64,000 bases of DNA from Aurantiochytrium sp. KH105 (taxonomy: Eukaryota > Sar > Bigyra > Thraustochytrida > Thraustochytriidae), in contig BGKB01000029.1 of assembly GCA_003116975.1 (NCBI GenBank), positions 482,487 through 546,486 of the forward strand. Direction: 5' to 3'. The notes beneath the pieces are model-generated. The model was not told the DNA's origin. It saw nothing but the letters and a program-made list of their open reading frames with translations, and made no database searches. The translations under genes were made by a program, and so were the position numbers. This document shows, one piece after another, positions 35,040 to 56,211 of the stretch (the stretch's first letter is position 1; each line of letters opens with the position of its first letter).

Positions 35040-38000
35040 ATGGAACACGTTCGCGGTGATGATGAGCTGCTTCAAGATATTCTCGCTGGAGTGGAGGCTG
35101 CAAGCTGGGCATGCGCAATACTCTTTTCATTGTGGGTCGTCGGCCTTGGTCGAAAGCCGACAGAATGTGCCGAAACCGGCCTTCCGAAGAAATTGCGCGA
35201 GGGCCTCCATGGCCAGTGGTTCGAGATCGCAGGAACGCACGGGTTTCCGGGTCGAGGACTTCGTTCGGCTCTGAGAAGAGATCCAAGCAGGTACTCTTTG
35301 AGCTTTCAATTCACGAATACTGGCACAGACGTCATGGACGCCGTGATGACGACTACAGATTGCCCTGAGGACGGAGGTGCGTATCGCAATTCCTTTGTAC
35401 AAGTGCGAGGCGCGCGGTCCGACGTCTTGCGAGTCCACATGCTGATCTTGCCCGGCGCGCAGAGTTCTTCATTCCCATCAAAGTTGCTGCATCTGTCAGA
35501 GGACAACGACCTGCTTCTCTTAGGGTCGCCATCTGACAAGCATGTCATTCACGTGCTTTCAAAGGAGTCAAAACCGAGCCGCGACAAGCTTATCCGTTGC
35601 ATGCAAGTGGTTTTGGGCCTGGGATTCTCTCTTCAGGACTTGGGGCCACTCTCAAACTGCCAATACGTCTCGCAGAAATCTGCCTTCTCCACGGTACGTC
35701 GCTATGGCATCCTCACCTCGCGTGAGACAAAGTTCAACAGCGAGGCTGGATTTAATATGTCTTATAACTACGCCCGTGGCCGCCGGGGGGCGCGGCAGAC
35801 GGAGCAGAGCACAGCTGAGCGCACAGACCAATCACCCGGCTGGTCCGCCCAGAAAGAATCAGGGAACCCGGTCTCGCCCGAGATTTTCCGCGATCAGGTG
35901 GACAACGACCTGGAGTATCGAACCTTTGCCAAATTCTTCGATGGGTGTGTTCGCGGCGAGCAACGTTTCGTGGCGGACTTTATCGATCGCGAGCCCCTCT
36001 GGACCCTCGCGCGCCACAAAAGGACGCTTTGGACCGGCCTGCACTTTGCCGCGTACAACGGATACTCCGAGCTTGTCTCGTATTTTCTGGGGAAAGGATC
36101 GAATCCGTGCGCGCGTTCGGCTCGTGGCGAGTCTCCTCTTGCCGTTGCTTTAACCGGTATGCTGAGGCACATTGGGGAGCGCATGCGGTGGGACGACGGG
36201 AGCTCGTGCGTCTTTGACCTTCGTGAAGGCGACGAAACCTACAGCCATAAACCACACTCCCTCGAGCGGTACGAGGAGACAGTTCGAAAGCTGTTGTGGC
36301 ACAGCCCGTGTCTCTCGACGCAATGCGATAATTTGGGCGAGGACCCCTTACGTCTTCTCCTCGCTGGATGGGCACGACTCGAAGAGTCAGCTTTGGCCGC
36401 CCATCCTCGAGTGGCAGGATACGCCAGACGTTACTTGCAACGCGTGCAACAGCGAATCCTGCGGGCTTCATACCTTCCCTCGGCCTTCATCCCGCTCGAC
36501 TCAAATCTCAGACGCTCCGGGGCGCTATTATCATGGGCACTTGCACGAGCGTGCGGGAAGGTTTTACATTTCGCGCATAGGATTCTCGACACAATCACTC
36601 TCGTATGTACTATACTCTGCCTCGGCGCTTTTTACTGGGGCGTATTCCGACCGATTGGCCTTTTGCTGATTTATTCGCGTGTCTGGGTGTCGTTCGAGTC
36701 ACGGCAAATGGCCGCGAATGCTTTTAAGGGTGATTGTGCAGTCCTATTTATACTTTCTTTGGACTCTCCGATCGTGAGCAAGTTCGGACAACTGATTTCG
36801 GGGCGCATCGATCTAATTTCGCAAGCTGTGGCGAGTCGACTGTCGATCATGCAAAGCCATGGCATCTCGATGTCGCCTCGTGAGGTGAGGTCAACCCTCA
36901 ACATGAACTACGGAGAAGACTATAGCCATATCTTTGAGGCATTCGATTTGAGGCCATTTGCAGTCGGAACTGTAGCTCAGGTTCACCGCGCGAGGCTTGC
37001 TAGCAATGGCGAGCTTGTGGCGGTGAAGATAATCAAACGCGGGATGGAAGAGGGCCTCGAGCGCTATCTTCGTCTTTTACATGCTTTGAGCTGGCTAGGT
37101 TTCTTTGGGAGGACAAAGGCAGCCCGTCTCCGCATCGAGCATCTAGCAATGATGTTTCTTCAGCAGACAGATCTCAATCTCGAGGCGGCTAGCAAGCACG
37201 CTATGCAGCGTGAAGCGTGGGGCCATATTAAGCGTGACGGGAACAATCTTCACACACCCGAATTCCCGATCGTCCACTCCCAATTTTCGATGCACCACGT
37301 GCTCGTGATGGATATGATGGAAGGCTGTGTGCCTCTGCTCGAATACCTTGCGAAGCCGACGTTCCCAATCAAGCTAATCTTGACGCGCTTGGGGCGGATT
37401 CACCTTCGTAATGAGTTCATGGATGGCCTTGTGCATTGCGATCTCCATCCGGGAAACATCATGATCCGACCTGACAATGGCCGAATTGTCCTTTTGGACT
37501 TTGGCCTTGTCGGGGAACTTACAGAATCTGATCGCGTGGGAACTACGCTTGCGATGCTCGCCGGAATTACAAGCCATGCGGATGTTTCGGTCGATGTTTT
37601 TCTGACCAATTACATCCAGGATTCCGAATTTGTGTTTGCTGATCCTGATCTGCGCGCACGCTTTGTTGTAGCCATGCTGCCGTTGTTTCGCACGCATATG
37701 AGTACATCTGGGTCCTGGGATTTCGCAGAGTTCTCAGCAGACTATACGCGTGTCCTGACTGACTTCGATCTCGGATTAACATCGTGCTGGTATACGCTTG
37801 AGATGAGTGTCATTCACATTGTGAGCACCTTGGCCCTATTGCAGCCCGAAGCTGCGTTCAAGGATGCGGTGTGGCAGCTTTTGCACGCGGAGCATGAGGC
37901 ACTCCTGAATAACATTGCTGGCTCAGAATATTACGATAGGCTGGAAGGGCCTTTGCGTCGCAAATTCGAATGGGCCAAAATATTCCAGCGAAATAGTTAG
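35040..38000 (+). CDS. Lipocalin-like/ankyrin/ABC1 kinase-like fusion, array copy 1 (986 aa, most divergent)
   Basis: In order: a membrane segment at residues ~15-37, then a lipocalin-like domain at ~55-220. The domain opens with the GxW motif LHGQWFEIAG (Trp60) and closes with LLLLGSPSDKHVIHVLSKE and a final helix, as in Blc/apolipoprotein-D lipocalins. Ankyrin-like repeats follow at ~300-420 (LHFAAYNGY at 334), a membrane hairpin at ~497-555, and an ABC1/UbiB domain at ~575-880. The ABC1 features are KFGQ (Lys581), an AVGTVAQVH nucleotide loop, Lys663 in VAVKIIKRG, HCDLHPGN (799-806) and DFG (820-822). ABC1 proteins are atypical ATPases/kinases supporting ubiquinone and other lipid pathways. 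This copy keeps the canonical glycine of KxGQ, unlike copies 2-5. The start is the first ATG. It reads as the outgroup of the array. Confidence 0.88.
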   Translation: MEHVRGDDELLQDILAGVEAASWACAILFSLWVVGLGRKPTECAETGLPKKLREGLHGQWFEIAGTHGFPGRGLRSALRRDPSRYSLSFQFTNTGTDVMDAVMTTTDCPEDGGAYRNSFVQVRGARSDVLRVHMLILPGAQSSSFPSKLLHLSEDNDLLLLGSPSDKHVIHVLSKESKPSRDKLIRCMQVVLGLGFSLQDLGPLSNCQYVSQKSAFSTVRRYGILTSRETKFNSEAGFNMSYNYARGRRGARQTEQSTAERTDQSPGWSAQKESGNPVSPEIFRDQVDNDLEYRTFAKFFDGCVRGEQRFVADFIDREPLWTLARHKRTLWTGLHFAAYNGYSELVSYFLGKGSNPCARSARGESPLAVALTGMLRHIGERMRWDDGSSCVFDLREGDETYSHKPHSLERYEETVRKLLWHSPCLSTQCDNLGEDPLRLLLAGWARLEESALAAHPRVAGYARRYLQRVQQRILRASYLPSAFIPLDSNLRRSGALLSWALARACGKVLHFAHRILDTITLVCTILCLGAFYWGVFRPIGLLLIYSRVWVSFESRQMAANAFKGDCAVLFILSLDSPIVSKFGQLISGRIDLISQAVASRLSIMQSHGISMSPREVRSTLNMNYGEDYSHIFEAFDLRPFAVGTVAQVHRARLASNGELVAVKIIKRGMEEGLERYLRLLHALSWLGFFGRTKAARLRIEHLAMMFLQQTDLNLEAASKHAMQREAWGHIKRDGNNLHTPEFPIVHSQFSMHHVLVMDMMEGCVPLLEYLAKPTFPIKLILTRLGRIHLRNEFMDGLVHCDLHPGNIMIRPDNGRIVLLDFGLVGELTESDRVGTTLAMLAGITSHADVSVDVFLTNYIQDSEFVFADPDLRARFVVAMLPLFRTHMSTSGSWDFAEFSADYTRVLTDFDLGLTSCWYTLEMSVIHIVSTLALLQPEAAFKDAVWQLLHAEHEALLNNIAGSEYYDRLEGPLRRKFEWAKIFQRNS

Positions 38001-38960
38001 TGGGTTGACCGAAATAGGCCTAGGTCTAGGCCTATACAAGTAAGGTGTGCATGCTATCTTCGGAAGGCTCCTTCTTGCTCCTCGTGTGTCTATCTCAGAT
38101 TGTACTGTTAGTTAAACTTTATCCTGAAAGACATCTTCTTGAGCAACCTTTTCAAAGTTTTGGTGCGCTCCACAGCGAACAAATCCTGGTTTCCAGAGCA
38201 GCTGCTCTCCCGCAACGAAGGCACCACGTCCTATGGCGGTGTGCAAGCTTGCATGGCTTGCATGGCTGCGGCCGGCAGCAATTGACAGTGAGCGTGCTCG
38301 TGGTCCAAAGGATCCTTCTTAAGGCTAGCAGAGCACTGTGTGGGTGCTGCAGCACACAGTCAGCCGGTCCCACAAAGCAAGGGCCAGCAGCATCCCGCAC
38401 TTCCCGCAGCATCGGCCAAAAGAGAAGCACCAATGCTTTGTCCTTGTGTGTCTAACAAATTGGAGGAGGTGACGATAGCAGAACGGCAAAGAGGCGGGCG
38501 CCAGGCCCCGGCTGCGCGGCGCGGCAGTCGCGGGTACGGAGCCGCGCGCGCGCGCGCCAGCGCCGCCTCGCAGCCTCGCAGCCTCACAGACACCATCGTC
38601 AGCGACGGCTAGCCCCCGGCGTGAGCTGGTCCGGCGCCAGCGCGGAAGTGGACATCACGTGCTGACCGACGAGCCGCGCCGAGAGGCTTCAAGCACCGGT
38701 TTGCAGCACACCAAGCCAGGCGCGCGTGGGCCAGGCGCTGGCAGGCAGGGGCCACAAGGGAGTCGAGCTGGCGGAGTTTTTCCACCCTGGGAAACTCTGC
38801 CGATCAAGGCGTCTTGATTATCTGGCTTTGCCGAAGCTGCAACGGCACCACTGCAATTGCCCTCGCGCCCTGTCATTTCCATCTCACCCTCCCCGTCCGC
38901 TAACACTTGCTTAGTTGCTGCCTTAGACGTTGCAAATCGTCGGCTTCCCTTCCAAAGGCC
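38001..38960. other. Spacer between array copies 1 and 2
   Basis: No gene-like frame. The open frame of copy 2 extends back to TTG at 38907, but its first ATG is 38961. GCGC-rich segment at 38545-38565. Confidence 0.45.
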
Positions 38961-41900
38961 ATGTTCCTATGCGCTTTTCTTGACACAGAGGTGCTCGCCG
39001 AAATTCTCTTCGCCGTTGAATGTCTTTTTTGGGCATGTGCAACTGTTTTCTCCATCGTGGTCTTGGCACTTCGCCCATCGCTGGCGTCACGTGTCGCGGT
39101 GGATGGCAGTGAGTGGATCAAAAAAGATCTTCACGGAGAATGGTTTGAAGTTGCGGGGATCATCGATCCAGTTGACCGCATACTTCGGACTGCACTCAAT
39201 CCAGATCCGAGCAAGCGAAACCTTTGCCTTCAATTTATTCGGACGCGACGTGACACATTAGACTTTGCAATGTGCGCCTCGAGCAACATGGAGGCCGGAA
39301 GTACCCATCAAAATATGTTTGGATGGGGAGGGTGCAATGCGGAAACAAGCACTTTGTTGTTTGGTGTTTCAATCATGTCAGGAAGACTTTCGCTTGTTGT
39401 CCCGATTGTTCTGCTCCACATGAACAAGACGAAGAGAATCATGCTGTGTACAAGCCCCACGAATCGAAACGTACTCTATGTTTTCTCAAAAGACCTACAG
39501 CCAAAGCAGAAGGACATGATACCGATTCTTCAGGAAATAGTTGGCTTGGGGTATACTCTGAAAAATCTCAAAGCTGTTGTTCGAGGCGAGCCCAGGCCAC
39601 GAGGTAGTGCCCTGCCAAGTGTTCGGCGGTACGGAATCCTACGTACGGAAGAAACAGAAGTTTCCACTCGTCTAGCGCTTTCCAATGTCATTCGTGGCGT
39701 GAGCGAGCAAGACGCGTCTCGTCATCAAGGTCCTACGCACGGTCAACATCGAAGGACCGAGCAGTCTAAGCCACCGGGGCCTGGTGGACCATCCGTCTCA
39801 TTCACGCCAAGAGATCACAAGCCAATTCTTTGCGTAGACCCTTGTGTGTTCCGAAAAGCCGCTTCACCAGATCACAAAGCTCATTCGTTTGACAAATTCT
39901 TTGATGGCTGCGTCCGTGGTGACCAGCGCTTCGTTGCTGACTTTGTGGAGCGCGAGTTTCTCTGGATTGTTGCACGACATCAGCGCAGTCTCTGGAGTGG
40001 ACTCCATTATGCGGCATACAATGGTAATGTTGAATTAGTCGCCTTTTTCCTCCGGAACAAAGCTGATGCACGAGCGCACTCAATCCGCGGTGAAACGCCA
40101 CTCATGGCTGCAATTGTAGGCGCGGTCAGGCATATCGAAGAACGAATTCGCTGGGTCAGTGGAACGTCCTGTGTCTTTGACCTTGCTGAAGGCGACGAGT
40201 ATTACAGCCACAAGCCGCACTCACTCGAGCGATACGACGAGACGATCCGTATCCTACTTCGATACGACTCGTGTCCATCTCGTCGTCAGAATCATTTAGG
40301 TTATGATCCATCCCAAGTGCTTCAAGTTGCTTTGCGCAAGCTTGACCCCGCGCTTAAACTCCACCCTCGCCTATCAGGCTACGTCCACAAACAAACCTGG
40401 CGTGTGCAGAACCGACTTCGTTGGGCCTCGATGTTTAATACGCCGTCTATTCGTCTCGACACAGATCTCAAACGTGCATGGGGATTGCTTTTATGGGTTA
40501 CGGTGCACATAGGGACCGGTTTGCTGCGCTATTTTCTCAAACTTCTCGAGGCATCCGTTCTTGCCATTGTGCTTGTCTGTGTCGGGTTCTTTTACTGGTG
40601 CATCTTCCAAACAGCAGGGCATCTTCTTATTCTTGTGCGAATATGGGTGCCCCTGGGGGCACGTCAACGCGCGGCTCAGACTTTTAGCGGCGACTGTGCA
40701 TTGCTCGTCATCCTCACGGTCGACTCGCCTGTTGTGACCAAGTTTGCACAACTGCTCTCGGGTCGCGTGGACCTCATTCCGCAAGCCGTGGCAGACAGGC
40801 TTGCCTTTTTGCAGAGTCGAGCTCCACCGATGTCGCCGCAGGAGGTGGAGGCCGCTCTGTGCAGGTGTTACGGCGAGGACCGCAGCCACCTCTTCGCGTC
40901 GTTCGACATTCGTCCCTTGGCCGTGGGCACTGTGGCGCAGGTCCACCGAGCACATCTTGCAAGCAGTGGGGAGCCGGTGGCTGTCAAGATTGTCAAGCGC
41001 GGCATGCGCAAGGGGCTCGATCGGTATCTCTTCTTGCTGCGCATGCTGAGTCGACTGGGCGTGTTTGGTCGCAGCAAGGTAGCGCGGCTCCGCGTGGAGC
41101 ATGTGACGATGATGTTTCGGCAGCAGACGGACCTGAATCTGGAGGCCGCGAGCATGCAGGCGATGCAGCGCGAGGCGCAGCGTCATCGGGTCCGACGGGA
41201 AGACCGCTGTCACGTCCCGGACTTCCCGCAGGCGTACTCTTTGTTCACAATGGAGAACATATTGGTAATGGACCTGATTGACGACTGTGTGTCTCTGCAG
41301 GACTTTCTGGCGAAGCCGAGCGTCCCCGTGAAGGTGATGCTGGCGCGTGTGAGCCGCATCTTCTATCGCAGCGTGATGATGGACGGTCTGCTGCACTGCG
41401 ACATGCATCCGGGCAACATCATGGTTCGTCCAGAGGACGGGCGAATCGTGTTGCTGGACTTTGGTCTCGTGGGCGAGCTGACGGAGTCTGAGCGCGTGGC
41501 GCTGGTGGCGTTTCACCTTGCGAGTGTGTCGAATGAGTTTGTGTTTGCAGCAGAGATCTTTGTGGAGAACTTTGTTGCAGACGTGGATGGAAGGCTATCG
41601 GATGAGGACGTTCGTATCCGGTGTTTGGTATCTCTGGGCCCGGTGTTTGGGGCTCACTTTGGTGAGTTCGGCGGTTGGGACTTTGTGGAGTTCTCGGTGG
41701 ATCTGGAGCGTGTGTTAAAGGAGTTTGACGTCGGGGTGACGTCAGCGTGGTCGATTTTGCAGATGGGTATTATGCATTTTCGGAGTACGCTTGCGCTTCT
41801 GCAGCGCGAGGGTGCTTTGCGCGATGTATTTCTTCCTTTCTTGGTTGCCGAGTATGATGTTCTACTGGGGACGCTCATTCGGACCAAGTATCACAGTAAG

Positions 41901-41969
41901 CTTGAGGCTTCGGTGCGGAGAAAATTTAGCTGGGGTAGCATTTTCAACGGCGGCACATCGACCATGTAA
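38961..41969 (+). CDS. Lipocalin-like/ankyrin/ABC1 kinase-like fusion, array copy 2 (1002 aa)
   Basis: The start is the ATG at 38961, which places the N-terminal membrane segment (FAVECLFWACATVFSIVVLAL) at residues ~17-37, as in the other copies. The lipocalin-like GxW is LHGEWFEVAG. The ankyrin region has LHYAAYNGN, and the membrane hairpin covers ~510-565. The ABC1 domain has KFAQ (Lys594), AVGTVAQVH, Lys676, HCDMHPGN (812-819) and DFG (833-835). From about 40560 to 41930 the DNA is nearly identical to copies 3-5, while everything upstream differs strongly. Distinctive kinase-half variants are ...DIRPLAVG and VSRIF. Its lipocalin domain is one of the most divergent of the five, which suggests different ligands or relaxed constraint. 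Confidence 0.88.
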   Translation: MFLCAFLDTEVLAEILFAVECLFWACATVFSIVVLALRPSLASRVAVDGSEWIKKDLHGEWFEVAGIIDPVDRILRTALNPDPSKRNLCLQFIRTRRDTLDFAMCASSNMEAGSTHQNMFGWGGCNAETSTLLFGVSIMSGRLSLVVPIVLLHMNKTKRIMLCTSPTNRNVLYVFSKDLQPKQKDMIPILQEIVGLGYTLKNLKAVVRGEPRPRGSALPSVRRYGILRTEETEVSTRLALSNVIRGVSEQDASRHQGPTHGQHRRTEQSKPPGPGGPSVSFTPRDHKPILCVDPCVFRKAASPDHKAHSFDKFFDGCVRGDQRFVADFVEREFLWIVARHQRSLWSGLHYAAYNGNVELVAFFLRNKADARAHSIRGETPLMAAIVGAVRHIEERIRWVSGTSCVFDLAEGDEYYSHKPHSLERYDETIRILLRYDSCPSRRQNHLGYDPSQVLQVALRKLDPALKLHPRLSGYVHKQTWRVQNRLRWASMFNTPSIRLDTDLKRAWGLLLWVTVHIGTGLLRYFLKLLEASVLAIVLVCVGFFYWCIFQTAGHLLILVRIWVPLGARQRAAQTFSGDCALLVILTVDSPVVTKFAQLLSGRVDLIPQAVADRLAFLQSRAPPMSPQEVEAALCRCYGEDRSHLFASFDIRPLAVGTVAQVHRAHLASSGEPVAVKIVKRGMRKGLDRYLFLLRMLSRLGVFGRSKVARLRVEHVTMMFRQQTDLNLEAASMQAMQREAQRHRVRREDRCHVPDFPQAYSLFTMENILVMDLIDDCVSLQDFLAKPSVPVKVMLARVSRIFYRSVMMDGLLHCDMHPGNIMVRPEDGRIVLLDFGLVGELTESERVALVAFHLASVSNEFVFAAEIFVENFVADVDGRLSDEDVRIRCLVSLGPVFGAHFGEFGGWDFVEFSVDLERVLKEFDVGVTSAWSILQMGIMHFRSTLALLQREGALRDVFLPFLVAEYDVLLGTLIRTKYHSKLEASVRRKFSWGSIFNGGTSTM

Positions 41970-43123
41970 GGAGCATGACGTCGAAGACTGTGGTTATATT
42001 CCATTTGATTCCACAAGAGAGGCCTGCGGTCGGTGGTTCACTTGCATATTATTTATTCAATGCTTTTGGCATGCAATTTCAAACAGAATTTCACGCAAGA
42101 GAGCATGTTTGTCGTTGTATTAATCATCATTGCGTTGGCCGTACAGTCCCGCTAATCGTGTACATCAGGGAGGGAGACATCTCGCGAGATTTGCAAAGTG
42201 TATGAGAGAAATCATTCCACGACGATGCATCAAATGTTCTGCGCTCGTAAGCTCAAACCTAGTAGTAGTCCTACATCTTCGCCTGTGAATTCAGAGTGTT
42301 TGCGAGCGAGGCCCTTGCTTGCATTGGAACTGAGATACCGAATGCAGTCTGTGCAGGTCGAGGCGAAGTCCTTGATCCGAATCCGGGCGAACTGGTGAGG
42401 CCCTTAAAGAAGATGCTGCTAGCTTTCGCTTTCTTCCGAATTCTTGAGCACCACGGCGGTTGCTTTTAGCTGCTGGTGAGACGCTTGCGCACGTCACGTG
42501 TTCGTGCGCGTCGAAGAGTAGGGTGGGCAGCGAGCTGCCAAGGGCTGCGAGAATCCTCTCGTAAGCCCCGCAAGTGCGGGAGGTTGATACCTTGGGTCCT
42601 GTTTGGATCGATGCGCTCGCGGGGCCAAGGCAAACCCGGTACACAGCTAGAGCGTACCACGCGTACCACGCGTGCGTACGCGCCGAGCGTGCGCGGCGTT
42701 GTGGGGCTCCGCCGCTGCTACCTGCGCGCGGGTCCCCTGTCGCGGACGCAAGAGCGGCTGACAAGCAAGCAAGATAGCGCAAGCTCAAGCGTAAAGATTG
42801 AGCAAACGTTGGGCTCGTCGTGTCGCAAGATCCGGCCTTGTTGCGCGGTAGAACCTAAGTTGGCCGCTTTGCACAGGAAAGCGGCCACGAGGCCAGGTCG
42901 GTCCTCTCGTGAGGCTGGCAAGGTAGCGACGGCGAGAAGGATACGTTGACGACGAAGTTCGCACTGTGCCGTATCTAAAAAACAAAACAAAATCTTGCCT
43001 TGCCTGCCTGCGAGGCCGGTGGGAAAGCGCGAAATAGCTTTGTACTGATCAACCCGAATCTGGGCTGGTACTAGCCTGCCTGCCTGCCTCTCTCCTTGAT
43101 TCGAAGTCCTGTCGAGTCAAAAT
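41970..43123. other. Spacer between array copies 2 and 3
   Basis: 1.15 kb; AT-richer next to copy 2, GC-rich from 42450. CTGCCTGCCTG units precede copy 3 (43070-43090). No coding-like frame. Confidence 0.45.
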
Positions 43124-46078
43124 ATGATGGTCGCAGACTCTGAGCGTCTCCGCTGGCTGCTATATGTGCTCGAGGCCGCAGTCTGGGTGGCAGCAAGTTT
43201 GACCTCCGTCGGGCTTTTTATCTTCCGTACAAAGCCTTTCCTAGAGGAACAAGGAGACACCGAAGTCATTCGCGAGCGAATACATGGGGTGTGGTACCAG
43301 ATCGCTGGTATTCACAGCGTTGCAGATCAGCTTTTTCGCTCCTCTTTGAGCCCAGACTCAAGTGGAAGCAACTTGAGCTTGCAGATTATTAACACAGGCC
43401 AGCAAAACCTTGACTTTGCCGCAATTTCTGCGAACACAGTGGAAGCTGGAAAAGCGCATCAAATAATTTATGGGACATTTTGTCCTGTTTCAAACTATGC
43501 GTTTGACATGAGAGTCTCGCTCCTCTCAGGAAGATTGATCCTGGCTGGTCGTGCGGAACTTTTACACATCAGTGCGACGGAGGGTATTATGGTCTGGGAA
43601 AATAGCGCAGACCCAAATGTCGTGTACGTCTTTTCCAAAGATCCACGGCCCACGAGAAGGGAAATGATTCCTATTCTCGAGTGCATTGCAAAGCGCGGCT
43701 TCTCTCTTAAAAAACTCAAGTCCATTGTGCAGGCACCCCAGAAACCCTCTCTCTCTGGCCACTCTACGATTCGTCGCTTCGGCGTCCTCACATCAAGCGA
43801 GATGCTGATTGCCCAAAGGCTACATCGCTTTGTACAAGTCCCTACGAAAGATGCAAGGAATGTCGGCCAAAGAGGCAACGTCGAGCGCCATATTCTGAAT
43901 CATCCTATACAGCACACAGAGAGCATTTTTGCTCATTCCGTCAATCCAGATATCTTCCGCAATCGCAAGAACCCCGACCTTGTTTCTCACGCAATGGACA
44001 AGTTCTTTGATGGCTGCGTGCGAGGCAACCAACGCTTTGTGGCCGATTTTGTGGACCGCGAGTTCCTGTGGACCGTGGCGCGCGATCCGAAAACTCTCTG
44101 GTCTGGACTGCATTTCGCAGCATACAATGGGTACACCGAGCTTGTGGGATATTTCCTGGAGCGGAACGCGAACTCACTTGCAAACTCGATTCGCGGCGAG
44201 ACACCGCTGATGCTCGCCGTTCTGGGAATGATCCGGCATGTCGAAGAGCGCATCTCATGGGAGGATGGCACGTCATGCGTCTACGACCTCGAAGAGGGTG
44301 ACGGCTTTTACAGCCACAAGCCGCACTCGCTCGAGCGATACGACGAGACGATCCGTATCCTACTTCACCTCGATCCTTCCATGTATATGCATGAGGACAA
44401 GCAGGGAAGATGCCCTTTACAAGTCCTCGAAGCTGCCAGAGCGAACCTTGCGTCGAGGCTTAAAGCGCATCCTGGCCTCGCGAACTATGTTGAAAGGTAC
44501 TTTTGGCGCACCGAGATCCGCTTCAAATGGGCGTCAGTCACGGCGACAAGGCCTATCCCTCTGGACACAGATTTGAAGCGCGCAACGGGAATGCTGCTCT
44601 GGGTTTTTGTACGCACGTGCACTGGCTTGATACATTATTTTTTGAAGTTTGTGGATGCTCTAGGACTTGCCATTGTGCTTGTCTGTGTCGGGTTCTTTTA
44701 CTGGTGCATCTTTCAAACAGCAGGGCATCTTCTTATTCTTGCGCGAATATGGGTGCCCCTGGGGGCACGTCAACGCGCGGCTCAGACTTTTAGCGGCGAC
44801 TGTGCATTGCTCATCGTCCTCACTGTCGACTCGCCTGTTGTGACCAAGTTTGCACAGCTACTCTCGGGTCGCGTGGACCTCATACCGAAAGCCGTGGCAG
44901 ACAGGCTTGCCTTTTTGCAGAGTCGAGCTCCGCCGATGTCGCCACAGGAGGTGGAGGCCGCTCTGTGCAGGTGCTACGGCGAGGACCGCAGTCACCTCTT
45001 TGCGTCGTTCGACATGCGTCCCTTCGCCGTGGGCACTGTGGCGCAGGTCCACCGAGCACATCTTGCAAGCAGTGGGGAGCCGGTGGCTGTCAAGATTGTC
45101 AAGCGCGGCATGCGCAAGGGGCTCGATCGGTATCTCTTTTTGCTGCGCATGCTGAGTCGACTGGGCGTGTTTGGTCGCAGCAAGGTAGCGCGGCTCCGCG
45201 TGGAGCATGTGACGATGATGTTTCGGCAGCAGACGGACCTGAATCTGGAGGCCGCGAGCATGCAGGCGATGCAGCGCGAGGCGCGGCGTCATCGGGTCCG
45301 ACGGGAAGATCGCTGTCACGTCCCGGACTTCCCGCAGGCACACTCTTTGTTCACAATGGAGAACATACTGGTGATGGACCTGATTGACGACTGTGTGTCT
45401 CTGCAGGACTTTCTGGCGAAGCCGAGCGTCCCCGTGAAGGTGATGCTGGCACGCGTGGGCCGCATCTTCTATCGCAGCGTGATGATGGACGGTCTGCTGC
45501 ACTGCGACATGCATCCGGGCAACATCATGGTCCGTCCAGAGGACGGGCGAATCGTGTTGCTGGACTTTGGTCTCGTGGGCGAGCTGACGGAGTCTGAGCG
45601 CGTGGCGCTGGTGGCGTTTCACCTTGCGAGTGTGTCGAATGAGTTTGTGTTTGCAGCAGAGATCTTTGTGGAGAACTTTGTTGCAGACGTGGATGGAAGG
45701 CTATCGGATGAGGACGTTCGTATCCGGTGTTTGGTATCTCTGGGCCCGGTGTTTGGGGCTCACTTCGGTGAGTTCGGTGGTTGGGACTTTGTGGGGTTCT
45801 CGGTGGATCTGGAGCGTGTGTTAAAGGAGTTTGACGTCGGGGTGACGTCAGCGTGGTCGATTTTGCAGATGGGTATTATGCATTTTCGGAGTACGCTTGC
45901 GCTTCTGCAGCGCGAGGGTGCTTTGCGCGATGTATATCTTCCTTTCTTGGTTGCCGAGTATGATGCTCTACTGGGAACGCTCATTGGGACCAAGTATCAC
46001 AGTAAGCTTGAGGCTTCGGTGCGGAGAAAATTTAGTTGGGGGGGGCTTTTTCAGAGTGACGCAAAGTCTGGAGCATGA
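43124..46078 (+). CDS. Lipocalin-like/ankyrin/ABC1 kinase-like fusion, array copy 3 (984 aa)
   Basis: The tandem ATGs at 43124/43127 precede a membrane segment at ~12-35. The lipocalin-like domain begins IHGVWYQIAG (Trp57) and ends VVYVFSKDPRPTRREM plus a helix. The ankyrin core is LHFAAYNGYTELVGYFLERN. The membrane hairpin lies at ~490-545, and the ABC1 domain has KFAQ (Lys575), Lys657, HCDMHPGN (793-800) and DFG (814-816). From about 43605 to the C-terminus it is nearly identical to copy 4; before that point the two lipocalin domains share only moderate similarity. It has a unique Lys in DLIPKAVADR where the other three late copies have Gln. The C-tail (GGLFQSDAKSGA) differs from copies 2 and 4. 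Confidence 0.88.
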   Translation: MMVADSERLRWLLYVLEAAVWVAASLTSVGLFIFRTKPFLEEQGDTEVIRERIHGVWYQIAGIHSVADQLFRSSLSPDSSGSNLSLQIINTGQQNLDFAAISANTVEAGKAHQIIYGTFCPVSNYAFDMRVSLLSGRLILAGRAELLHISATEGIMVWENSADPNVVYVFSKDPRPTRREMIPILECIAKRGFSLKKLKSIVQAPQKPSLSGHSTIRRFGVLTSSEMLIAQRLHRFVQVPTKDARNVGQRGNVERHILNHPIQHTESIFAHSVNPDIFRNRKNPDLVSHAMDKFFDGCVRGNQRFVADFVDREFLWTVARDPKTLWSGLHFAAYNGYTELVGYFLERNANSLANSIRGETPLMLAVLGMIRHVEERISWEDGTSCVYDLEEGDGFYSHKPHSLERYDETIRILLHLDPSMYMHEDKQGRCPLQVLEAARANLASRLKAHPGLANYVERYFWRTEIRFKWASVTATRPIPLDTDLKRATGMLLWVFVRTCTGLIHYFLKFVDALGLAIVLVCVGFFYWCIFQTAGHLLILARIWVPLGARQRAAQTFSGDCALLIVLTVDSPVVTKFAQLLSGRVDLIPKAVADRLAFLQSRAPPMSPQEVEAALCRCYGEDRSHLFASFDMRPFAVGTVAQVHRAHLASSGEPVAVKIVKRGMRKGLDRYLFLLRMLSRLGVFGRSKVARLRVEHVTMMFRQQTDLNLEAASMQAMQREARRHRVRREDRCHVPDFPQAHSLFTMENILVMDLIDDCVSLQDFLAKPSVPVKVMLARVGRIFYRSVMMDGLLHCDMHPGNIMVRPEDGRIVLLDFGLVGELTESERVALVAFHLASVSNEFVFAAEIFVENFVADVDGRLSDEDVRIRCLVSLGPVFGAHFGEFGGWDFVGFSVDLERVLKEFDVGVTSAWSILQMGIMHFRSTLALLQREGALRDVYLPFLVAEYDALLGTLIGTKYHSKLEASVRRKFSWGGLFQSDAKSGA

Positions 46079-46571: not shown

Positions 46572-46607
<36 letters not shown>

Positions 46608-46967: not shown

Positions 46968-49925
46968 ATGCTTAATTTTGCAGACTCTGAGTGTCTCCGG
47001 TGGCTGTTTGATATTTTGGAGTTCACAGTTTGGGTATTTGCAAGTCTGTTCTCCATCGGGCTTTTGATCTTCCGCACAAAGCCTCCTCCGCAGGAGACAG
47101 GAAATACCAAGGCCTTTCGTGGGTCGCTCCATGGTCAGTGGTATGAGATCGCTGCTATTCACAGCGTTGCTGATCAGTTGTTTCGCTCTTCTCTTCGATT
47201 CGACTCAAGTGAGAGTAATTTGAGCATGCACCTCGTTAACACAGGCCAGCAAAATCTTGACTTCACCACGACTACCTCAAACACAGTCGAAGCTGGGAAG
47301 ACGCACCAAACGATCTCTGGGACTTTTTGTCCTATTTCACAGGACACGCTCAACATAAAGTACTCCATCTTCTCAGGAAGATTGATGTTGCACGCTTCTT
47401 TGAAGATTTTCCAATTCAACGAAACGCGAGACGTCCTGGTGATGGAAAATGTCGCAGACCCAAATGTTGTGTACATCTTTTCCAAAGATCCACGGCCCAC
47501 GAGAAGGCAAATGATTCCTATTCTCGAGTGCATTGCAAAGCGCGGCTTCTCTCTTAAAAAACTCAAGTCCATCGTGCAGGCACCCCAGAAACCCTCTCTC
47601 TCTGGCCACTCTACGATTCGTCGCTTCGGCGTCCTCACATCAAGCGAGATGCTGATTGCCCAAAGGCTACATCGCTTTGTACAAGTCCCTACGAAAGATG
47701 CAAGGAATGTCGGCCAAAGACGCAACGTTGAGCGCCATGTTCCGGATCATCCTATAGAGCGCACAGAGAGCAGTTTTGCTCATTCCATCAATCCAGATAT
47801 CTTCCGTAATCGCAAGAACTCCGACCTTATTTCTCGCGCAATGGACAAGTTCTTTGATGGCTGCGTGCGAGGCAACCAACGCTTTGTGGCCGATTTTGTG
47901 GACCGCGAGTTCCTGTGGACCGTGGCGCGCGATCCGAAAACTCTCTGGTCTGGACTGCATTTCGCAGCATACAATGGGTATACCGAGCTTGTGGGATATT
48001 TCCTGGAGCGGAACGCGAACTCACTTGCAAACTCCATTCGCGGCGAGACGCCGCTAATGCTCGCCGTTCTGGGAATGATCCGGCATGTCGAAGAGCGCAT
48101 CTCATGGGAGGATGGCACGTCATGCGTCTACGACCTCGAAGAGGGTGACGGCTTTTACAGCCACAAGCCGCACTCGCTCGAGCGATACGACGAGACGATC
48201 CGTATCCTACTTCACCTCGATCCTTCCATGTATATGCATGAGGACAAGCAGGGAAGATGCCCTTTACAAGTCCTCGAAGCTGCCAGAGCGAACCTTGCGC
48301 CGAGGCTTAAAGCGCATCCTGGCCTCGCGAACTATGTTGAAAGGTACTTTTGGCGCACCGAGATCCGCTTCAAATGGGCGTCAGTCACGGCGACAAGGCC
48401 TATCCCTCTGGACACAGATTTGAAGCGCGCAACAGGGATGCTGCTCTGGGTTTTTGTACGCACGTGCACTGGCTTGATACATTATTTTTTGAAGTTTGTG
48501 GATGCTCTAGGACTTGCCATTGTGCTTGTCTGTGTCGGGTTCTTTTACTGGTGCATCTTTCAAACAGCAGGGCATCTTCTTATTCTTGCGCGAATATGGG
48601 TGCCCCTGGGGGCACGTCAACGCGCGGCTCAGACTTTTAGCGGCGACTGTGCATTGCTCATCGTCCTCACTGTCGACTCGCCTGTTGTGACCAAGTTTGC
48701 ACAGCTACTCTCGGGTCGCGTGGACCTCATTCCGCAAGCCGTGGCAGACCGGCTTGCCTTTTTGCAGAGTCGAGCTCCGCCGATGTCGCCACAGGAGGTG
48801 GAGGCCGCTCTGTGCAGGTGCTACGGCGAGGACCGCAGTCACCTCTTTGCGTCGTTCGACATGCGTCCCTTCGCCGTGGGCACTGTGGCGCAGGTCCACC
48901 GAGCACATCTTGCAAGCAGTGGGGAGCCGGTGGCTGTCAAGATTGTCAAGCGCGGCATGCGCAAGGGGCTCGATCGGTATCTCTTTTTGCTGCGCATGCT
49001 GAGTCGACTGGGCGTGTTTGGTCGCAGCAAGGTAGCGCGGCTCCGCGTGGAGCATGTGACGATGATGTTTCGGCAGCAGACGGACCTGAATCTGGAGGCC
49101 GCGAGCATGCAGGCGATGCAGCGCGAGGCGCGGCGTCATCGGGTCCGACGGGAAGATCGCTGTCACGTCCCGGACTTCCCGCAGGCACACTCTTTGTTCA
49201 CAATGGAGAACATACTGGTGATGGACCTGATTGACGACTGTGTGTCTCTGCAGGACTTTCTGGCGAAGCCGAGCGTCCCCGTGAAGGTGATGCTGGCACG
49301 CGTGGGCCGCATCTTCTATCGCAGCGTGATGATGGACGGTCTGCTGCACTGCGACATGCATCCGGGCAACATCATGGTCCGTCCAGAGGACGGGCGAATC
49401 GTGTTGCTGGACTTTGGTCTCGTGGGCGAGCTGACGGAGTCTGAGCGCGTGGCGCTGGTGGCGTTTCATCTTGCGAGTGTGTCGAATGAGTTTGTGTTTG
49501 CAGCAGAGATCTTTGTGGAGAACTTTGTTGCAGACGTGGATGGAAGGCTATCGGATGAGGACGTTCGTATCCGGTGTTTGGTATCTCTGGGCCCGGTGTT
49601 TGGGGCTCACTTTGGTGAGTTCGGTGGTTGGGACTTTGTGGAGTTCTCGGTGGATCTGGAGCGTGTGTTAAAGGAGTTTGACGTCGGGGTGACGTCAGCG
49701 TGGTCGATTTTGCAGATGGGTATCATGCATTTTCGGAGTACGCTTGCGCTTCTGCAGCGCGAGGGTGCTTTGCGCGATGTATTTCTTCCTTTCTTGGTTG
49801 CCGAATATGATGTTCTACTGGGGACGCTCATTCGGACCAAGTATCACAGCAAGCTGGAGGCTTTGGTGCATAAAAGATTTGGCTGGAGCAGGATCTTCGC
49901 GAGGCGAGAACCTTGTTGCAGCTGA
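46968..49925 (+). CDS. Lipocalin-like/ankyrin/ABC1 kinase-like fusion, array copy 4 (985 aa)
   Basis: The start is the ATG at 46968. The N-terminal membrane segment is at ~15-36. The lipocalin-like domain begins LHGQWYEIAA and ends VVYIFSKDPRPTRRQM. The ankyrin core is LHFAAYNGYTELVGYFLERN, identical to copy 3. The membrane hairpin is at ~490-545. The ABC1 domain has KFAQ (Lys576), Lys658, HCDMHPGN (794-801) and DFG (815-817). It is almost the same as copy 3 from about 47455 onwards. Near the C-terminus, however, it shares variants with copy 2 (DFVEFSVD, DVFLPFLVAEYDVLLGTLIRTKY) and then ends in its own tail (FARREPCCS), showing patchwork ancestry. Confidence 0.88.
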   Translation: MLNFADSECLRWLFDILEFTVWVFASLFSIGLLIFRTKPPPQETGNTKAFRGSLHGQWYEIAAIHSVADQLFRSSLRFDSSESNLSMHLVNTGQQNLDFTTTTSNTVEAGKTHQTISGTFCPISQDTLNIKYSIFSGRLMLHASLKIFQFNETRDVLVMENVADPNVVYIFSKDPRPTRRQMIPILECIAKRGFSLKKLKSIVQAPQKPSLSGHSTIRRFGVLTSSEMLIAQRLHRFVQVPTKDARNVGQRRNVERHVPDHPIERTESSFAHSINPDIFRNRKNSDLISRAMDKFFDGCVRGNQRFVADFVDREFLWTVARDPKTLWSGLHFAAYNGYTELVGYFLERNANSLANSIRGETPLMLAVLGMIRHVEERISWEDGTSCVYDLEEGDGFYSHKPHSLERYDETIRILLHLDPSMYMHEDKQGRCPLQVLEAARANLAPRLKAHPGLANYVERYFWRTEIRFKWASVTATRPIPLDTDLKRATGMLLWVFVRTCTGLIHYFLKFVDALGLAIVLVCVGFFYWCIFQTAGHLLILARIWVPLGARQRAAQTFSGDCALLIVLTVDSPVVTKFAQLLSGRVDLIPQAVADRLAFLQSRAPPMSPQEVEAALCRCYGEDRSHLFASFDMRPFAVGTVAQVHRAHLASSGEPVAVKIVKRGMRKGLDRYLFLLRMLSRLGVFGRSKVARLRVEHVTMMFRQQTDLNLEAASMQAMQREARRHRVRREDRCHVPDFPQAHSLFTMENILVMDLIDDCVSLQDFLAKPSVPVKVMLARVGRIFYRSVMMDGLLHCDMHPGNIMVRPEDGRIVLLDFGLVGELTESERVALVAFHLASVSNEFVFAAEIFVENFVADVDGRLSDEDVRIRCLVSLGPVFGAHFGEFGGWDFVEFSVDLERVLKEFDVGVTSAWSILQMGIMHFRSTLALLQREGALRDVFLPFLVAEYDVLLGTLIRTKYHSKLEALVHKRFGWSRIFARREPCCS

Positions 49926-50934
49926 ATGTGGTGGCAGCTCACGTTCTCACAGCGCGTCGGAACTTGCAGTTTAAAGTTGTGTGAGCAGAGAGACATCAAT
50001 TTCTACAGACGAGGGTTTCTCCCTCTGTTCCACAGCTCGCTTTGCTGTAGGTTCTACAGCACGCGCTTTCCCGCAAAACGAGCGCTCCCCGAACTCGAGT
50101 GTGGGGTGTCGCTTAATAATTTATCTACAAAAGTACGTAGAGTGTGGGGATCCGCAGCTGTGGCGCGCCGCATGGGTTCCAAGGGTGCCGCGCCAGAGCA
50201 CGAGAGCGAGCGCTTGCGCGAGAGCAGCATCGCCGACTTTGAGACCGAGGGCGAGGCCCAGGCCGACGACGGGGACGCAAGACCAAGACCAAGACCGAGT
50301 CCGAGCCGAGACCAAGTTCGGGACCGCGAGACCGCGAGCGAGTAAGGGCTGTCTGTTTTCGCGCTCAAGTCCGCGTCGGAGTCCGAGTTCCGGGCTGTTA
50401 ATGCTAGTAATCTTTGCAGCTGCTTGCCAAAGCGGAGAGAGCAGGCGCAGGATTGAAGCAGGCAAAACCCTATCGCATCGCGGCGAGTAGGAGAGCGGCA
50501 GCGAAGACGTGCCGCGCGCGCGGCGTGCAGCGGGTGCCGCGTGCCGCGTGCCGCGTGCCGCGATCGGCTCGGCAGTGGCCACGGCCGGGAGAGCGAGCCG
50601 CGAGGAGGCGCACGATCACAGCTCTGCGCCACCTTGCGTGCTTGCTTGCATGGAGGAGGCGACGCAAGGGCGGCAAGAACGACGACCAGCTCGGCTCGTA
50701 TATACGAGAAGAACGGCGAGAGAGGAGAAGCGAAGCAGCCGACTTACCTTGCTTGCCGTCGCAACGGCAAGAGGCGCACAGGACTTTGCACTGATTATAT
50801 TTTGGGATATTCAAAAGGCTTGACGCAGGTTCCTTTTCGCGATCACGTTCATGAGCAGCTGTCCGAGATTTATTTTTCAAAGACGCCCCCAAGAGCCCTT
50901 TTATACCCCGGTCATTGCGAGAGATCAAGTTGAT
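49926..50934. other. Spacer between array copies 4 and 5, with a possible small gene
   Basis: Includes the candidate at 50172-50456. The rest is GC-rich with CGTGCCGCG-type repeats at 50530-50562 and no clear frame. Confidence 0.45.
50172..50456 (+). CDS. Possible small acidic protein (57 aa unspliced, 68 aa if spliced)
   Basis: From ATG 50172 the codon choice is strongly gene-like and the peptide is Glu/Asp-rich, followed by Arg-Pro repeats. The unspliced frame stops at 50345. A good donor (GTAAGG at 50342) and acceptor (CTTTGCAG ending 50419) would remove 78 bases and end at a TGA at 50456. No family is recognised; there is no membrane segment. It lies between two array genes but shows no relation to them. 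Confidence 0.32.
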
Positions 50935-53931
50935 ATGGAAAGCTGTACTTTTCGATCCTGGGATGCAACGCTTCGTGACACATTTTTCGTCGTGGAGATC
51001 ATCGTGTGGTCGTGTGCAGTGCTAGCCACCCTTGTGCTCCTTATTTCACGGAATCCACCAGCGCAACAAGTCCGTTGCTTTGAGTCCAAGAATGTTCGCA
51101 AAGTTCTTCATGGTGACTGGTTCGAGATCGCTGGAATCTACACCTTTGCCGATCAGAGTATTCGATCCACCTTGAGTCGGGACTCGAGCCACTGTAATGT
51201 GAGTGTGCAAATCACAAATACAGGAAACGAGCTCTTGGATGTGTCTTTGATCGCGGCGAATTCTGTGGAGGCTGGGAAGTCGCATCAGGGTCTTTTCTCG
51301 CGAATACTTGTGGCAAGCCCTGACTCTCTTCGTTTCCATGTGCCTTTACTTTCCGGGCGCTTGCTTCTTCATGTTCCAATGCTGATTCTGCACGTGAATC
51401 CTACACATGATTTGATGGTCTGGGGATCACCAACTGATAAATCGGTCGTCTATGTTTTCTCCAAATCTCCGCGTCCGACACGAGAAAAGATGATTCCAGT
51501 CCTTGGCTTCTTGGTCAGAGCTGGATATTCGCTGAAGAAGTTACAGGCCGTTGTGCAAACGATACAGGGCACGTCTAGTTTGGTCCTTCCAACCGTGCGC
51601 CGCTTTCGCATACTCAGCACTGCAGAGACGCTGCTTCGCGACTGCCAACTTGCGGAGGACTTTCAGCAGCCGACAGGAGTGTCGTCTGCGCAAAGCGACT
51701 CGACCCATTATAATCATTCTGATGTCAATACGCAGCATTACGTTGCAGACCCGGGCTGGAGTCAATCATTTACGCTCGTGTCGCCCAACATTCTTCGCAA
51801 AAAGGTCCATCCGGATGTTGAGGCATACACGCATAGCAGGTTCTTTGAAGGATGCATTCGCGGCGATCAACGTTTCGTGTCTGACTTCGTTGAGCGCGAG
51901 ATTCTATGGACAGTGGCGCGACATCCCGAGTGTCTCTGGACAGGGCTCCATTTTGCCGCCTACAACGCATACCCTGAGCTCGTGGCCTACCTTGCCGGCA
52001 TCACTTCAAACCCATTTGCGCGGTCGAATCTTGACGAAACCCCGCTGATGGTCGCTGTCATGGGGATGATTCGCCATGCTGAGGAGCGGATGCGTTGGAA
52101 TGATAAATCCACGTGCGTTTTCGATCTCCAGGAAGGGGACGACTTTTACAGCCACAGACCGCACTCTCTCGAGCGATATGATGAAACCATCCAGATACTA
52201 TTGAAATTCGATTCGTCACTCCCGCGCCATAGAAACCGGCAAGGTGAAGACCCTTTGCAATATCTACGTTCGGCGATTAGTGCAATGGAGCCATCGTTAA
52301 AAGTCCACCCTCGCATTGCAACTCAAGTGCTGGGCCATTTCACACGCGTGCAGCGTCGCCTTACTCTGGCCTCATATGCGAACTTTCAGCCTGTCAAGCT
52401 TGACACAGATCTGAAGCGCGCAGCGGGGATGCTGCTCTGGGTTTTTGTACGCACGTGCACTGGCCTGATACATTATTTTTTGAAGTTTGTGGATGCTCTA
52501 GGACTTGCCATTGTGCTTGTCTGTGTCGGGTTCTTTTACTGGTGCATCTTCCAAACAGCAGGGTATCTTCTTATTCTTGCGCGAATATGGGTGCCCCTGG
52601 GGGCACGTCAACGCGCGGCTCAGACTTTTAGCGGCGACTGTGCATTGCTCGTCATCCTCACGGTCGACTCGCCTGTTGTGACCAAGTTTGCACAACTGCT
52701 CTCGGGTCGTGTGGACCTCATTCCGCAAGCCGTGGCAGACAGGCTTGCCTTTTTGCAGAGTCGAGCTCCACCGATGTCGCCGCAGGAGGTGGAGGCCGCT
52801 CTGTGCAGGTGTTACGGCGAGGACCGCAGTCACCTCTTCGCGTCGTTCGACATGCGTCCCTTGGCCGTGGGCACTGTGGCGCAGGTCCACCGAGCACATC
52901 TTGCAAGCAGTGGGGAGCCGGTGGCTGTCAAGATTGTCAAGCGCGGCATGCGCAAGGGGCTCGATCGGTATCTCTTTTTGCTGCGCATGCTGAGTCGACT
53001 GGGCGTGTTTGGTCGCAGCAAGGTAGCGCGGCTCCGCGTGGAGCATGTGACGATGATGTTTCGGCAGCAGACGGACCTGAATCTGGAGGCCGCGAGCATG
53101 CAGGCGATGCAGCGCGAGGCGCAGCGTCATCGGGTCCGACGGGAAGACCGCTGTCACGTCCCGGACTTCCCGCAGGCGTACTCTTTGTTCACAATGGAGA
53201 ACATACTGGTAATGGACCTGATTGACGACTGTGTGTCTCTGCAGGACTTTCTGGCGAAGCCGAGCGTCCCCGTGAAGGTGATGCTGGCACGCATGGGCCG
53301 CATCTTCTATCGCAGCGTGATGATGGACGGTCTGCTGCACTGCGACATGCATCCGGGCAACATCATGGTCCGTCCAGAGGACGGGCGAATCGTGTTGCTG
53401 GACTTTGGTCTCGTGGGCGAGCTGACGGAGTCTGAGCGCGTGGCGCTGGTGGCGTTTCATCTTGCGAGTGTGTCGAATGAGTTTGTGTTTGCAGCAGAGA
53501 TCTTTGTGGAGAACTTTGTTGCAGACGTGGATGGAAGGCTATCGGATGAGGACGTTCGTATCCGGTGCTTGGTATCTCTGGGCCCGGTGTTTGGGGCTCA
53601 CTTCGGTGAGTTCGGCGGTTGGGACTTTGTGGGGTTCTCGGTGGATCTGGAGCGTGTGTTAAAGGAGTTTGACGTCGGGGTGACGTCAGCGTGGTCGATT
53701 TTGCAGATGGGTATCATGCATTTTCGGAGTACGCTTGCGCTTCTGCAGCCCAAGGGCGCTTTTAGAGGAGTGTTGAAACAGCTCCTCCATTCTGAACATT
53801 CGATGTTACTGGACGCACTCATCGGCACCAAGTATCACAGCAAGCTTGAAGTCCCTGTGCGTCAGAAGTTTGGGTGGGGCCTTCTCTTCAAGAGCGATCG
53901 CAAGCTTCGTGCTGAGCAGGTTTACTCTTGA
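50935..53931 (+). CDS. Lipocalin-like/ankyrin/ABC1 kinase-like fusion, array copy 5 (998 aa, mosaic)
   Basis: The start at 50935 has a better context (G at -3, G at +4) and matches the N-terminal length of the other copies; an in-frame ATG at 50851 would add 28 residues. The membrane segment is at ~15-38, the lipocalin-like GxW is LHGDWFEIAG, and the closing strand is SVVYVFSKSPRPTREKM. The ankyrin core is LHFAAYNAYPELVAYL. The ABC1 domain has KFAQ (Lys584), Lys666, HCDMHPGN (802-809) and DFG (823-825). The tract ~52400-53747 is nearly identical to copies 2-4, closest to copy 2 at its start. After LALLQ (53747) it changes abruptly to PKGAFRGVLKQLLHSEH, resembling copy 1 (PEAAFKDAVWQLLHAEH). 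Upstream of ~52400 it is divergent. Confidence 0.88.
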   Translation: MESCTFRSWDATLRDTFFVVEIIVWSCAVLATLVLLISRNPPAQQVRCFESKNVRKVLHGDWFEIAGIYTFADQSIRSTLSRDSSHCNVSVQITNTGNELLDVSLIAANSVEAGKSHQGLFSRILVASPDSLRFHVPLLSGRLLLHVPMLILHVNPTHDLMVWGSPTDKSVVYVFSKSPRPTREKMIPVLGFLVRAGYSLKKLQAVVQTIQGTSSLVLPTVRRFRILSTAETLLRDCQLAEDFQQPTGVSSAQSDSTHYNHSDVNTQHYVADPGWSQSFTLVSPNILRKKVHPDVEAYTHSRFFEGCIRGDQRFVSDFVEREILWTVARHPECLWTGLHFAAYNAYPELVAYLAGITSNPFARSNLDETPLMVAVMGMIRHAEERMRWNDKSTCVFDLQEGDDFYSHRPHSLERYDETIQILLKFDSSLPRHRNRQGEDPLQYLRSAISAMEPSLKVHPRIATQVLGHFTRVQRRLTLASYANFQPVKLDTDLKRAAGMLLWVFVRTCTGLIHYFLKFVDALGLAIVLVCVGFFYWCIFQTAGYLLILARIWVPLGARQRAAQTFSGDCALLVILTVDSPVVTKFAQLLSGRVDLIPQAVADRLAFLQSRAPPMSPQEVEAALCRCYGEDRSHLFASFDMRPLAVGTVAQVHRAHLASSGEPVAVKIVKRGMRKGLDRYLFLLRMLSRLGVFGRSKVARLRVEHVTMMFRQQTDLNLEAASMQAMQREAQRHRVRREDRCHVPDFPQAYSLFTMENILVMDLIDDCVSLQDFLAKPSVPVKVMLARMGRIFYRSVMMDGLLHCDMHPGNIMVRPEDGRIVLLDFGLVGELTESERVALVAFHLASVSNEFVFAAEIFVENFVADVDGRLSDEDVRIRCLVSLGPVFGAHFGEFGGWDFVGFSVDLERVLKEFDVGVTSAWSILQMGIMHFRSTLALLQPKGAFRGVLKQLLHSEHSMLLDALIGTKYHSKLEVPVRQKFGWGLLFKSDRKLRAEQVYS

Positions 53932-56163: not shown

Positions 56164-56211
<48 letters not shown>

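Follow-up and report, generated by a model that had tools for sequence, protein, structure and literature searches.

The closest described relatives of the proteins considered here belong to the UbiB (ABC1) family, in which the use of ATP by UbiB and COQ8 proteins is still debated. UbiB, Coq8 and COQ8A have an ATPase activity that is stimulated by analogues of intermediates of coenzyme Q (CoQ) (PMC7263595). The ATPase of Coq8 has been suggested to be coupled to the extraction of CoQ precursors, and the UbiB-family proteins Cqd1 and Cqd2 are reported to shift CoQ between membranes and to alter resistance to polyunsaturated fatty acids (PUFAs) (PMC8346625). In plastoglobules, ABC1K kinases are described beside fibrillins, which carry a lipocalin motif (PMC4915526). 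The present analysis concerns an array of five genes from Aurantiochytrium sp. KH105 whose products join an ABC1 domain to a probable lipocalin-like domain. The array lies in a stretch of 64,000 nucleotides (the window; assembly GCA_003116975.1, contig BGKB01000029.1, positions 482,487–546,486 of the forward strand), within which the positions below are numbered. No description of a lipocalin, ankyrin and ABC1 architecture was found in a full-text literature search that had most subscription journals outside its scope. An ABC1 domain fused to the fold of a lipid carrier, and retained by both haplotypes of the organism, would provide domain-fusion evidence on the handling of lipids by UbiB and COQ8 proteins.

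The array genes and their domains

The array occupies positions 35040–53931 of the forward strand and consists of five uninterrupted open reading frames (ORFs) arranged head to tail, which with the chosen ATGs encode proteins of 984–1002 amino acids (aa). The stop-to-stop lengths of copies 1–5 are 995, 1021, 992, 993 and 1035 aa. The genes and their parts are as follows (all on the + strand; gene coordinates include the stop codon).

Copy 1 (P0001), 35040–38000 (+), 986 aa, the most diverged copy: membrane segment 35067–35153; lipocalin-like 35202–35663; ankyrin 35931–36410; second hydrophobic region 36522–36698; ABC1 36753–37610
Copy 2 (P0002), 38961–41969 (+), 1002 aa: membrane segment 38991–39077; lipocalin-like 39126–39590; ankyrin 39894–40370; second hydrophobic region 40482–40658; ABC1 40713–41570
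Copy 3 (P0003), 43124–46078 (+), 984 aa: membrane segment 43145–43231; lipocalin-like 43277–43738; ankyrin 44000–44476; second hydrophobic region 44588–44764; ABC1 44819–45676
Copy 4 (P0004), 46968–49925 (+), 985 aa: membrane segment 46992–47078; lipocalin-like 47124–47585; ankyrin 47847–48323; second hydrophobic region 48435–48611; ABC1 48666–49523
Copy 5 (P0005), 50935–53931 (+), 998 aa: membrane segment 50968–51054; lipocalin-like 51103–51564; ankyrin 51838–52314; second hydrophobic region 52426–52602; ABC1 52657–53514

The 76 Mb assembly (367 contigs) holds the array region twice, as two haplotypes. The second haplotype (contig C189) contains five corresponding ORFs, all of them open, in one collinear block with 94% DNA identity over 21.6 kb. 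As the frames are open in both haplotypes and the pooled ratio of non-synonymous to synonymous polymorphism (pN/pS) between them is below 1 in all parts, the array is not a product of chance. Similarly, the frame of the linker that follows the lipocalin-like domain is open in all ten copies with a pN/pS of 0.41, which suggests that the N- and C-terminal parts form one gene. These features argue for a single fused protein being encoded by each array gene, from the lipocalin-like domain (the cup) through to the ABC1 domain, and the order of domains first proposed in a sequence-only reading of the window holds.

All ten copies carry the motifs HGxW[FY][EQ][IV]A, Kx[AG]Q, AxGTxAQVH, HCDxHPGN and LLDFG. 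The HGxW, KxxQ, HCDxHPGN and DFG motifs noted in the sequence-only reading are thus kept throughout, and VAVK is found in all five copies of the window. The ABC1 domain is certain, with PF03109 matched by every protein at 129.1–136.7 bits against a cut-off of 22.9 (E 2e-37 to 9.7e-40). The proposed lipocalin ending, GSPxxxxVxVxSKxPxPTR, stands in part: the V, SK and P are invariant, whereas GSP is limited to copies 1 and 5 and PTR to copies 3–5.

The lipocalin-like identity of the N-terminal domain is supported by profile–profile comparison. A profile of the five copies matched a Lipocalin_2 profile with a probability of 93.4% (E 2.6e-7, score 49.5) over 136 columns that include the C-terminal region. 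The Lipocalin_2 comparison profile (A5) had seven rows, two of which are haplotype copies of one gene; three rows came from 816 matching plasmid records and two from four further loci. The control scores were far lower: 18.6 for the top-scoring of 150 column shuffles, 18.0 and 18.7 for reversed profiles, and 22.4 or less for eleven stretches taken from elsewhere in the same proteins. The score stayed at 45.0–48.8 when any single copy was dropped and at 47.7 when the lipocalins of this genome were removed; the five-copy profile scored 21.4 against the own lipocalin by itself. A search of the genome with PF08212 (Lipocalin_2; E up to 1) gave four matches only: both alleles of a standalone lipocalin, which exceed the cut-off, and both alleles of array copy 5, which fall short of it (E 0.02 and 0.03). 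Copies 1–4 were not matched. When the domains were excised and compared with PF08212, the whole domain was matched in copy 5 (E 0.0003, 21.2 bits) and copy 4 (E 0.0021), pieces only in copy 3 (E 0.12 over 17 residues) and copy 2 (E 0.3), and copy 1 gave no match. No fibrillin family was among the Pfam matches of the excised domains.

The N-terminal domain could alternatively be another β-rich domain that carries HGxWFEIA by chance. Several results speak for this reading: none of the five passes the PF08212 cut-off of 24 bits, copies 2 and 3 match in pieces, single copies score 17.5–27.2 against the lipocalin profile, inside or near the range of the controls, and copy 5 has a weak match to DUF4940 (E 0.1). 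Furthermore, an hmmsearch of the PDB with the five-copy profile of the domain returned three chance-level matches (antibody, DEPDC5) and no lipocalin. Against this, the profile match spans nearly the whole domain with far lower controls, and the genome-wide matches to PF08212 are confined to a true lipocalin and array copy 5. A fold other than lipocalin is accordingly very unlikely, and homology to the lipocalins is likely, with considerable confidence.

The standalone lipocalin (L012, positions 1450–1959 on contig C17; allele L013 on C36) is the sole Lipocalin_2 gene above the cut-off in the genome and can start with MGIATSCF. This start presumably represents one for N-myristoylation and palmitoylation, and the protein is possibly a tethered lipocalin of the cytosol. 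In one bacterial genome a Lipocalin_2 match comprises two overlapping pieces in different frames (L042 and L043); these represent one gene, which was omitted from profile A5.

The middle part of the proteins is probably ankyrin-like. The cut-off of PF00023 (21.1 bits) was passed in three of the five copies (P0002 22.5, P0003 21.8, P0004 21.5) and not in P0001 (18.7) or P0005 (14.0), and all other ankyrin models remained below their cut-offs. Of the repeats claimed in the sequence-only reading one is clear; the adjoining repeats, one with a long insert, can be read by eye only.

With copy 4 as the query against the whole genome (E up to 0.01), at least 32 matches were obtained, 10 of which are near full length, five in each haplotype. 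The other 22 are confined to query residues 321–853, and therefore none extends to the lipocalin-like part. Copy 5 matched 23 phage and 249 plasmid records, none spanning 80% of the query; the matches are confined to the ABC1 half among the 20 and 25 listed. Pattern searches of viral contigs (77 and 28 matches) yielded no relatives, and that of prokaryote genome contigs (61 matches) yielded one ABC1 relative only, from Micromonospora. An Rfam scan of the window gave no match.

Constraint and gene conversion along the array

The ABC1 domain is the most tightly constrained part of the array proteins. Pooled between the haplotypes, pN/pS is 0.79 for the first segment (30 changes), 0.31 for the lipocalin-like domain, 0.41 for the linker, 0.19 for the ankyrin part, 0.24 for the hydrophobic region, 0.06 for ABC1 and 0.19 for the C-terminus.

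The two halves of copies 2–5 have different histories. In the haplotype of the window, residues 561–920 share 93–100% DNA likeness in the four tabulated pairs among these copies, whereas residues 1–480 share 26–68% in the pairs formed by copies 2 and 5, 2 and 3, and 3 and 5. The second haplotype gives 87–100% for residues 561–920 in three tabulated pairs. The synonymous divergence (dS) of the ABC1 domain is 0.014–0.087 in all six pairwise comparisons of copies 2–5, compared with 0.124–0.171 between the haplotypes of the same copies, and because different copies are thus more alike than alleles, gene conversion has taken place within the array. The ABC1 half of copies 2–5 has been homogenized in this way, and the cups are different.

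The trees follow the same division. In the lipocalin tree the haplotype partners pair with support of at least 97 for copies 1, 2, 4 and 5 (51/27 for copy 3). In the ABC1 tree copies 2–5 are not paired by copy; instead A2 joins A5 (99/99) and B2–B5 form a group (66/99), A and B denoting the haplotypes. For copies 3 and 4 the ankyrin part has been homogenized as well (B3 with B4, 100/100), and these copies are alike from about residue 161 onwards, differing mainly in the first 160 residues, which comprise the first segment together with the greater part of the cup, and in the C-terminal tail. Copy 1 is outside the conversion, with 41–72% likeness to copy 2 over residues 561–920. Positive selection on the cup was also considered, and no sign of it was seen (pN/pS between alleles 0.31, dN/dS between copies 3 and 4 approximately 0.42). 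The homogenized ABC1 half, set beside copy-specific cups, clearly shows gene conversion at work in a single half of a multidomain gene.

A possible lipid-moving function

It is suggested, tentatively and with rather less than even confidence, that the array encodes membrane-anchored UbiB-type ATPases that move a lipid into or out of their own lipocalin-like cup, with several cups served by one design of motor. Each gene would give rise to one protein that combines the ATPase with the lipid cup and with an ankyrin part serving for docking, and that is anchored in the membrane by its N-terminal segment and by the hydrophobic region preceding ABC1. Binding or hydrolysis of ATP at the site formed by VAVK, HCDxHPGN and DFG would be coupled to the pulling of a hydrophobic lipid from the bilayer, for which a quinone, another prenyl lipid, a carotenoid or a sterol are candidates, and the cup would accept or supply the extracted lipid. 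All copies would share one design, the motor of copies 2–5 being kept alike by gene conversion, and the differences between the cups (and between the docking parts, except for copies 3 and 4) may reflect several specificities for ligands or partners. By analogy with the family members described above, ATPase activity is the better supported activity for the ABC1 half, and the idea of lipid loading appears to fit the array proteins.

The membrane segment claimed for the start of all five proteins corresponds to a hydrophobic segment within the first ~43 residues of each (peak mean hydropathy 1.77–2.63). Before ABC1 the sequence-only reading had placed a membrane hairpin; a hydrophobic region is indeed found there in all five copies (approximately residues 498–556 in copy 5), with a single strong hydropathy peak (2.47 in copies 2–5, 1.9 in copy 1) and weaker flanking peaks of 1.37–1.55, and it may cross the membrane once or twice. 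A double crossing would place the cup, the ankyrin part and the ATPase on the same face, and that placement depends on it. The charges in the 15 residues on each side of the first segment (K+R/D+E, before and after) are 1/4 and 4/2 in copy 1, 0/1 and 3/3 in copy 2, 2/2 and 2/5 in copy 3, 1/2 and 2/1 in copy 4, and 1/2 and 4/1 in copy 5. Read by the positive-inside rule, a cytosolic cup would fit copies 1 and 5 and, weakly, copy 4; copy 2 gives no preference, and copy 3 would fit the opposite orientation.

Within the UbiB family the array proteins stand apart from the named groups. The three of the five that were scanned remain well below the UbiB equivalog cut-offs (TIGR01982, 132–163 of 487.55 bits; PRK04750, 138–170 of 667 bits), and the array is neither closest to COQ8 nor in possession of its TDPNxSN loop. 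The comparison was made with a sample of 18 reference rows, consisting of eight of the organism's own ABC1 loci and ten fetched records; the genome listing for PF03109 has 92 matches, many of them weak and kinase-like or from the second haplotype. The Micromonospora relative was omitted from the tree, no ORF of it having passed the motif filter. The best two of the 18 rows by BLAST are a Citrobacter UbiB and an ORF of Paracoccus versutus (128 and 114 bits with copy 5; 99.8 and 111 with copy 1). The organism's own COQ8 (contig C139; E 1.6e-128 to COQ8B) was the lowest-scoring row with copy 5 as well as copy 1 (43.5 and 42.4 bits). The ABC1 tree groups the array with these two bacterial sequences and a row from contig C1 (own_C1), which we take to be ADCK2-like, at 91/93, with the inner order open. 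Without the long-branched own_C1 the support for the array with the two bacterial sequences is 78/98, the bootstrap value not being settled. Because of the long branches, and because the bacterial rows were picked from matches to the array, there is moderate evidence that the ABC1 domain of the array is nearer to Citrobacter UbiB than to the organism's own COQ8. As an alternative, the ABC1 part could have been acquired recently from bacteria; for this the tree has too few eukaryote rows, and its bacterial rows are those picked from matches to the array. Another subgroup is represented in the genome by two ABC1 genes that are almost identical (contigs C52 and C72, tree distance ~0.03), of which the C52 gene has HYDPHLGN and the C72 gene HCDPHPGN.

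Several motifs of the ABC1 half deviate from the family pattern. In the KxGQ signature the K and Q are present in all ten copies, with G in copy 1 of each haplotype only (KFGQ) and A in the other eight (KFAQ). The A-rich loop AAAS is replaced by AVGT in all ten; Halorussus (AGGS) and own_C1 (GSGC) also deviate here. ExD is replaced by QTD in all ten, own_C1 having QMD and 17 of the 18 other rows an E at the first position. These replacements would fit a reading of the ABC1 half as a degenerate nucleotide-binding scaffold and of the protein as a static lipid store or a tether at membrane contacts, in which the cup and the ankyrin part were the active components. However, HCDxHPGN, DFG and VAVK are intact and the constraint on ABC1 is the strongest of all the parts. 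Moreover, QxD and the loop glycine are both found in own_C1 too and so do not represent decay specific to the array, and a scaffold of this kind seems quite improbable.

The loop glycine bears on a further possibility. A339 of COQ8A, located by counting along PDB 4ped and checked with R271, R301 and D326 (PMC7877690), is the third residue of AAAS, and the array has glycine at this position. The A339G variant of COQ8A is hyperactive and A338T impairs ATPase activity (PMC7877690); A339G and yeast A197G are reported to raise both ATPase activity and cis-autophosphorylation, with A197G lowering CoQ (PMC7263595). By this analogy the active site of the array proteins may be fast or may lean towards kinase activity, a reading clouded by the valine at the position of A338. 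A kinase-leaning site would suit ligand-gated signalling, in which the cup senses a lipid and switches a UbiB-like protein kinase on a partner recruited by the ankyrin part, the copies being receptors with different ligands. A catalytic half shared by copies 2–5 combined with diverged N-terminal parts has the pattern of a receptor repertoire, and a reconstructed ancestral COQ8B is reported to have phosphorylated COQ3 in vitro (PMC7615680). On the other hand, the glycine is also found in own_C1 and Halorussus, and the cup is without sign of positive selection. Signalling is therefore considered unlikely, though less so than a degenerate scaffold.

For a lipid-moving ATPase, the reading preferred here, a number of points are unfavourable in addition to the low scores of the individual cups and the PDB search that returned no lipocalin, both described above. 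If the region before ABC1 crosses only once, the cup and the ATPase may be on opposite faces, and the topology is unsure since the charges around the first segment disagree between copies. The family motifs are altered (AVGT and QTD in all copies of the window, KxAQ in four of five), the choice of bacterial rows for the tree was biased in their favour, and gene conversion can be neutral.

More broadly, a UbiB-type ATPase might be a lipid-extracting motor, with a lipocalin, fused to it in the array, as the soluble acceptor that has been missing. The array would then be a small repertoire of lipid-specific carriers built on one design of engine; this generalization is doubtful. If true, a motor uniform in copies 2–5 would be joined to a cup of its own in each copy, and the carriers might protect or distribute antioxidant lipids in a cell rich in PUFAs. 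The genome encodes PfaA-like ORFs (E 1.4e-278; 930 bits, below the model cut-off of 1010), and a carrier of antioxidant lipids would thus make sense in a PUFA-making cell, although this is conjecture. The fusion offers a testable single-chain system for ATP-driven movement of lipid between membrane and cup.

Elsewhere in the window the ORFs at 31830–32978, 23787–26411, 10677–12353, 26788–28485 and 60637–62730 correspond to a 3-hydroxyanthranilate dioxygenase, an amine oxidase, an aldehyde dehydrogenase, an FRG-domain protein and an EF-hand protein, respectively. No obvious link to quinones was seen among the 13 window ORFs scanned. An ORF of 404 aa at 55149–56360 (−) has helical repeats rich in Lys, Glu and Ala that by eye resemble proteins of the late-embryogenesis type; it had no Pfam match.

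Comparison with known systems

Bacterial UbiB, represented by the Citrobacter sequence (annotated ubiB) and the Paracoccus ORF (unannotated), is nearest to the array among the 18 rows and similar to it in the HxDxHxGN loop. The array adds to this an N-terminal half with the hydrophobic segment, the lipocalin-like domain and the ankyrin part, as well as the hydrophobic region before ABC1, and differs in AVGT, QTD, the mostly KxAQ signature and its scores below the equivalog cut-offs. COQ8/ADCK3-4 (the organism's own gene on C139; PDB 4ped and 9tvk) belongs to the same superfamily and has the same overall order of motifs, but its catalytic loop is QTDPNxSN where the array has HCDxHPGN, and the organism's COQ8 is the poorest of the rows.

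Cqd1/ADCK2 and Cqd2/ADCK1/5 are, like the array proteins, members of the UbiB family, and they are described as affecting lipid distribution; the word ankyrin is absent from the main text of that account (PMC8346625). The own_C1 row, taken above as ADCK2-like, shares QxD and the loop glycine with the array. Lipocalin_2 proteins, such as bacterial Blc and the organism's own L012, have in common with the array the GxW motif and the profile match over 136 columns. They are small free carriers, whereas the domain of the array lies within a protein of ~1000 aa and falls individually below the cut-off. The ABC1K kinases and fibrillins of plastoglobules resemble the array in that members of the ABC1 family are described beside lipocalin-motif proteins on a lipid body (PMC4915526). 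In the plastoglobule these are separate plastid proteins, whereas in the array they form one fused protein.

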